Source: Clostridia bacterium | GTDB lineage: Bacteria; Bacillota; DTU086 | Assembly (NCBI GenBank): GCA_012523575.1 | Contig: JAAYIF010000047.1 | Span: 1 to 36,655 of the forward strand | Direction: 5' to 3' | Length of the DNA: 36,655 nt | Shown: in pieces, positions 5,760 through 7,196 of the stretch | Layout of the letters: the number at the start of each line of letters is the position of its first letter | How positions within the stretch are numbered: position 1 is the first letter of the stretch | Notes under the pieces: model-generated | Databases searched by the model: none | Seen by the model: only the letters and a program-made list of their open reading frames with translations | Told to the model about the DNA's origin: nothing | Position numbers and translations under genes: made by a program

Positions 5760-5856
5760 TTTACGGTTTCCTCCAAGAGATTTTTACAGTGGTTTCGCAA
5801 ACCCCAGCGGATACCCTTTGTCAACAAGCTGAAATTTCTTCTTTTCTAATATAAAA

Positions 5857-6847: not shown

Positions 6848-6890
6848 TAAAACCTCAAAGGTCAGACTGTCCATAAATCATCCAAAGTAA

Positions 6891-7100
6891 ACTTTATGAG
6901 GTATCTGCTGCGGTTTGCGAGCCGACTTAACGAACGCCGGCTAAAACCGGGAGACACGGGCAGGACGTCTGCGCCAGCCATTCTCTCGCACGGATGCCGA
7001 ATTTGGGGCGGTCCGGTTTTGCCCATAACACTGCGCTTAGAGCTGTCCGGCGTGAGTTCGTAAGTAAAGAAAACCGCAGCAGATACCTTTTATATAAAGT
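6891..7100. ncRNA. Large nested inverted repeat; candidate structured RNA or palindromic mobile element
   Basis: This is a non-coding block between two genes. Layers, from outside in: ACTTTAT (6891-6897) / ATAAAGT (7094-7100); a perfect 18-bp pair, 6899-6916 with 7071-7088; CTTAACGAAC plus GCCGG (6926-6940) with CCGGC-GTGA-GTTCGTAAG (7047-7064); AAAACCGG (6943-6950) with CCGGTTTT (7013-7020); and a small apical GCTTAGAGC hairpin at about 7035-7043. The paired positions form one coherent branched fold of about 210 bases, far more than chance. I see no frame with a ribosome site inside. The strand is undecided; on the plus strand the outer stem ends in TTTTAT. I do not recognise a T-box, cobalamin, SRP, tmRNA, 6S or RNase P signature. 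A clostridial large RNA (such as the raiA motif) or a MITE-like element are the main alternatives. Confidence 0.5.
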
Positions 7101-7196
7101 CTGCTCATAGGTTTCCCTTTTTTGGGAGGGAAAAAGACCAATAATAAAAAACGTTATATATAAATAAATTTGATAAAAGTTAGGGGGGAGGATGTT

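Follow-up and report, generated by a model that had tools for sequence, protein, structure and literature searches.

A high-copy IS1182-type MITE with a TwoAYGGAY core in Clostridia and its candidate link to CsrA

The palindromic element at positions 6863-7103 of the stretch of Clostridia bacterium DNA analysed here (36,655 nucleotides, hereafter the window) is almost certainly a decayed copy of a high-copy IS1182-type MITE that carries a TwoAYGGAY core. The MITEs have their terminal repeats and their target in common with IS1182 elements, many copies are found in the host genome, the syntenic site of a relative is empty, and the TwoAYGGAY core covaries. If read-through transcription is set apart, the identification of a MITE together with an RNA core is highly probable. 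What is new here is the link between TwoAYGGAY and a mobile element with its target; no mention of TwoAYGGAY mobility was found in the literature covered, and prior notice is possible in subscription journals and supplements, which mostly lay outside that scope.

The window copy and its family

The element is about 240 bp long, and the ends of the window copy were placed from the conserved ends of sibling copies. The features of the window are listed below, the plus strand of the element being the strand of the GGA loops.

6863..7103, plus strand: complete TwoAYGGAY-type MITE copy, 241 bp, with ends as in sibling copies, matched at E = 1.2e-76 by a profile built from the other copies only (window copy left out); about 242 bp are absent from the syntenic 41_269 site
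6863..6877, plus strand: left terminal inverted repeat CAGACTGTCCATAAA, two mismatches to the family form CAGACTGTNGACAAA
7089..7103, plus strand: right terminal inverted repeat TTTATATAAAGTCTG, decayed from the family form TTTGTCAACAAGCTG
6854..6862, no strand: possible left target-site duplication CTCAAAGGT, inside the short palindrome ACCTCAAAGGT, 8/9 identity to 7104-7112
7104..7112, no strand: possible right target-site duplication CTCATAGGT; the candidate duplication is 9 bp with one mismatch, which is weak for the window copy alone
6899..6916, plus strand: 5' arm of the perfect 18-bp outer stem, AGGTATCTGCTGCGGTTT, paired in the minimum-energy fold
7071..7088, plus strand: 3' arm of the same stem, AAACCGCAGCAGATACCT, paired in the minimum-energy fold
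6944..6950 and 7013-7019, plus strand: 5' arm AAACCGG and 3' arm CCGGTTT of the stem around both hairpins, 94.5% of cells paired in 29 copies, a percentage inflated by the choice of those copies partly for intact hairpins
6953..6975, plus strand: hairpin 1, loop AGGAC, GGA at 6963-6965, lower stem decayed in the window copy
6988..6997, plus strand: hairpin 2, loop ACGGAU, outer 5' arm (CCCCAA in intact copies) replaced in the subfamily of the window copy
5796..5839, plus strand: truncated relic of a second copy, profile E 5.6e-5, with a TTTGTCAACAAGCTG end at 5817-5831 (two mismatches)

The palindrome, first noticed in a sequence-only reading of the window, is real. Its 18-bp arms match without error, an outer pair ACTTTAT/ATAAAGT is present close to the ends of the element, and a 221-nt region folds at -91 kcal/mol, compared with -67.7 +/- 4.5 for shuffled sequences (z = -5.2, 0/200). 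The opposite strand of this region folds equally well, as is expected of a palindrome. The span given in that reading, 6891-7100, takes in the palindrome but misses the left end of the element, which begins at 6863. The element contains no ORF of at least 60 aa; no tRNA was found in the window, and no Rfam family reached its own cut-off on the window copy or elsewhere in the window, the other matches, at high E-values, being weak and scattered. The relic at 5796-5839 lies immediately upstream of an Rrf2/IscR-like gene.

A 231-base DNA query recovered at least 40 copies from the host genome (1.64 Mb, 65 contigs) at 71-88% identity and E < 1e-28, the 40 being the scored matches among 86 candidates, and the loci that were fetched add more copies and bring the total to at least 45. 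The aligned host copies make up one family, mostly of 215-270 bp and with optional paired arms, which begins with CAGACTGTAGACAAA on the left and ends with TTTGTCAACAAGCTG on the right; TIR-like sites number 37 in the host, compared with 0 for a reversed control pattern. In the relative Clostridia bacterium 41_269 the syntenic site can be aligned on both sides and measures 167 bp, against 409 bp in the window, so that the two sites differ in length by 242 bp and the element itself measures 241 bp. Related elements occur elsewhere in the 41_269 genome and also in a third genome of the same family (G002). The family is thus short, non-coding and dispersed in many copies, as a MITE is.

The TwoAYGGAY core and its distribution

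Against the TwoAYGGAY model (RF01731) the window copy scores 21.8 bits, under the cut-off of 43, and it retains the loops AGGAC and ACGGAU on weakened stems. The Rfam comparison had been proposed in the sequence-only reading; carried out on the siblings as well, it gives scores above the cut-off, which reach 73.6 bits for host copies, 53.7 for those of 41_269 and 63.0 for those of G002. Since the siblings pass the cut-off and the window copy falls below it, we assign the element family to TwoAYGGAY and regard the window copy as a decayed member on the strength of these scores.

The covariation analysis that the same reading had called for was made on 29 copies from three genomes, in which 11 pairs have changed on both sides and the two hairpins covary (0.232 vs 0.133, a score reached by 0/500 shuffles), with the reservation that the copies were picked partly for intact hairpins, that many of the loci from 41_269 and G002 were fetched at matches to the Rfam model, and that relatedness and template switching in palindromes can also inflate such counts. 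When the partners were slid along the alignment the covariation signal was lost. At the level of the family, two AYGGAY-type loops are therefore found on covarying stems. At locus L041 (1541-1616) hairpin 1 is inverted in place (GGCGCCAACCTCCTGTTGGCGCC) and its loop reads CCTCC, not GGAGG, which points to an inversion, or to template switching inside the palindrome, and such events do occur here.

Loops of the form A-N-GGA-Y or AGGAY are found on stems of wholly different sequence in more than 20 genomes, a conservation that stems partly from the choice of those loci with the Rfam model. In the host, many copies are without the first GGA loop, and a large subfamily that was amplified has lost it. 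The stems retain bulges and tandem G-A and have not been mended to a perfect palindrome. The asymmetry between G-U and A-C events (25 vs 19) is weak and does not assign the functional strand. One TwoAYGGAY element of 41_269 has a 6S RNA gene (114.5 bits, L141 1898-2083) some 0.6 kb away.

The published description of TwoAYGGAY (Weinberg 2010, PMC2864571) presents it as a probable RNA with no assigned function, and the element shares with that description, in the parts accessible to us, the two-hairpin core, the GGA loops and the outer stem. It differs in that those parts of the publication do not mention mobility, terminal repeats or a target, and in the score of the window copy, which is below the cut-off.

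In a survey of 399 Bacillota genomes, 51 had TwoAYGGAY and 348 did not, and at least 35 of the 51 positive genomes had two or more matches, with six candidates per genome as the most that were scored. Copies within a single genome are mostly 72-95% alike in the four genomes G246, G222, G120 and G178. IS1182-type ends are present on TwoAYGGAY loci of five genomes from three families (the host, 41_269, G002, G120 and G161). The elements of most other lineages have the core between other ends, so IS1182 is not the sole carrier, and the core appears, from the ends so far read, to have carriers of several kinds. In G246 (L179-L182) the TwoAYGGAY cores lie in repeats ending GAGTCACGGGGACGGTTCT.., a carrier other than IS1182.

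Terminator targets and the IS1182 partner

In 41_269, all five copies examined lie between two copies of a terminator-like hairpin; AGGGCCGTTTTTACGGCCCT stands on either side of the element at L141 and AAACTGCTTCCTAAGAAGCAG at L248. Flank pairs of 11/40 host copies score above the 99th percentile of permuted pairs, the best having AAACCGCCCCTGCCGAGGCGGTTT on both sides, and we take the host copies to be older than those of 41_269. G120, a Bacillota genome from another family, has 117 sites that differ from the terminal repeat by no more than one mismatch. Those of its elements that are readable at both ends are also found in duplicated terminators. Target-site duplication, in the form of duplicated terminator hairpins, is thus a property seen at the level of the family, and the copies of 41_269 and G120 look like young insertions with their duplications intact.

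G120 also contains elements of about 110 bp with the same ends and without the two GGA hairpins (L234 1134-1244 and L235 1066-1181). These derivatives either still moved or arose by deletion on the spot, and in the former case transposition does not need the hairpins. A 159-bp MITE without a long ORF, with the same ends and duplicated terminators, lies on a phage-collection contig (L315 2096-2254), palindromes of 46 bp that are nearly just two terminal repeats lie on phage-collection contigs (L281 10488-10533 and similar loci), and a 64-bp palindrome was returned from G078 by a pattern made from the IS left end.

A search of IMG/VR for the terminal repeat returned four elements of 1.5-1.7 kb that are bounded by it (L267, L303, L327 and L335), and CAGACTGTNGACAAA ends are common to the MITEs and to these IS1182 elements. 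L327 lies inside AAGCATCCTTCGGGATGCTT, duplicated on both sides, and L267 inside AAGGGTGCTTCAAGCACCCAT, both perfectly duplicated terminator-like palindromes. The transposases of these ISs match the IS1182 family model NF033551 at 440 and 485 bits (cut-off 270) and have DUF772 and DDE domains. A DUF772 search gave 0 matches in the host assembly and in 41_269, and no intact IS1182 transposase was found in the host. Six contig ends of 41_269 (L134-L136, L130, L131 and L133) consist of two IS end sequences in three identical copies each, with the TIR CAGACTGTCGACAAA; they resemble the ends of L303 and L327 and lie mostly in duplicated palindromes. Since several contigs break in identical IS ends, a multi-copy IS1182-like element is probably present in 41_269 but unassembled. 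The IS ends of 41_269, G002 and G161 are solo ends or contig breaks in which no transposase is readable, and the DUF772 transposases of G120 and G161 were rejected as partners on account of their different terminal repeats. Neither a relative of the element nor a usable IS match came from the plasmid collection, and scanning viral sequences for the end in its CGAC form yielded just a truncated IS end or chance matches.

The IS1182 member IS1272 (IS1272/TnSha1) targets terminator hairpins and no fixed sequence (PMC4923244), as do the elements described here. For IS1272, however, blunt cuts and deletion of part of the hairpin were reported in that paper, whereas the elements described here have the hairpin duplicated in full; the MITE also differs from IS1182 ISs in having a conserved RNA-like core.

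We propose that an IS1182-family transposase, by recognising the 15-bp ends, mobilises the MITE in trans, and that insertion would take place at a terminator hairpin, which would then be duplicated on both sides. As read from the sequences, the hairpin alone is duplicated, so that the copy met first by RNA polymerase is separated from its U-tract, which stays with the distal copy. With a proximal hairpin that has lost the U-tract and a distal one that has kept it, host transcription should enter the element and stop beyond it. An RNA made from a sense-oriented element would display two GGA-loop hairpins and could bind a CsrA dimer, for which reason the likeliest role of the cargo, borne by a selfish element, is that of a CsrA-binding decoy or protective structure.

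CsrA and the alternative explanations

GGA in the loops of both hairpins is a CsrA-binding signature, and the host encodes CsrA (G000:C27:698-850, 87 bits). CsrA is present in 49/51 genomes with TwoAYGGAY vs 236/348 without it (Fisher P 3.9e-6, uncorrected for phylogeny). CsrA binding by TwoAYGGAY was proposed in 2014 from motif matching alone (PMC4333381), and the co-occurrence is an addition of the present analysis. No sense bias relative to neighbouring host genes was found (8 sense, 16 antisense, 9 convergent and 5 divergent copies), and, by our reading of the host genome, the first GGA loop is kept no better in sense than in antisense copies; neither orientation nor loop decay in the host gives a sign that a sense transcript is selected for. 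We would put the chance that the core acts by way of CsrA just short of even.

Paired hairpins with GGA loops and the presence of CsrA in the host recall the CsrA-sequestering RNAs of the CsrB/RsmY type, from which the element differs in having only two sites per element and in its many dispersed copies. Its position between two terminators is like that of the E. coli RNAs RrA, RrB and RrF, CsrA-binding sRNAs that are transcribed by read-through (PMC8144298). CsrA binding is a property of those RNAs and a candidate one of the element; the E. coli RNAs are fixed in rRNA operons and immobile, and no sequence relation is claimed.

The alternative that we take most seriously, and still consider somewhat improbable, is a plain selfish MITE, in which the palindrome matters as DNA only (through transposase or target mimicry, or as a cruciform), the loops have their GGA by chance, and what Rfam lists as the RNA family TwoAYGGAY is in truth a transposon. 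Equal folding of both strands, the absence of sense bias, the amplification of subfamilies with a broken hairpin 1 and the weak wobble asymmetry all agree with it, as does the inversion at L041, since template switching of the kind it suggests can mimic compensatory change. Against it stand the persistence of the A-N-GGA-Y and AGGAY loops across genomes in which the stems are wholly different, a two-hairpin core that stays while ends and carriers vary by lineage, the co-occurrence with CsrA, and bulges and tandem G-A that have been kept rather than corrected.

Domestication by the host, with the dispersed copies maintained by host selection as sRNA genes that form a CsrB-like sponge spread over many loci, would fit the paired GGA hairpins, the CsrA gene of the host and the precedent of the E. 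coli RNAs, but we think it improbable: the sole comparable syntenic site is empty in the relative, the host copies decay freely, and the copies of 41_269 and G120 resemble young insertions. A structured RNA of the raiA class encoded by a single-copy gene, raiA having been named as an example in the sequence-only reading on the basis of size and clostridial context, can be set aside with near certainty. No match to raiA (RF03072) was found in the host genome (the control genomes of that search likewise gave none), and copy number rules out a single-copy gene; the search of the host genome suggested in that reading showed the locus to be high-copy, and in place of a single-copy locus at a syntenic position the nearest relative has an empty site. 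Structured RNA and MITE-type palindrome were put forward in the same reading as an either/or. Both descriptions hold and the two are not alternatives, the element being a high-copy MITE with the core of a structured-RNA family already known.

An orphan among RNA families since 2010, TwoAYGGAY now has a carrier. Its high copy number, insertion at terminators and ends shared with IS1182 could explain its patchy distribution, and genome-wide counts of TwoAYGGAY should be read with the caution that they include transposon copies. Insertion with duplication of the terminator is a means by which a promoterless element could be transcribed with termination undisturbed. If the GGA hairpins bind CsrA, this would be a case of RNA decoys for a global regulator borne on mobile DNA. 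It may even be, though we think it somewhat less likely than not, that TwoAYGGAY is mobile-element cargo of this kind across the Bacillota, and that insertion into terminators, by letting host transcripts run into the element, would display dozens of CsrA-binding hairpin pairs.
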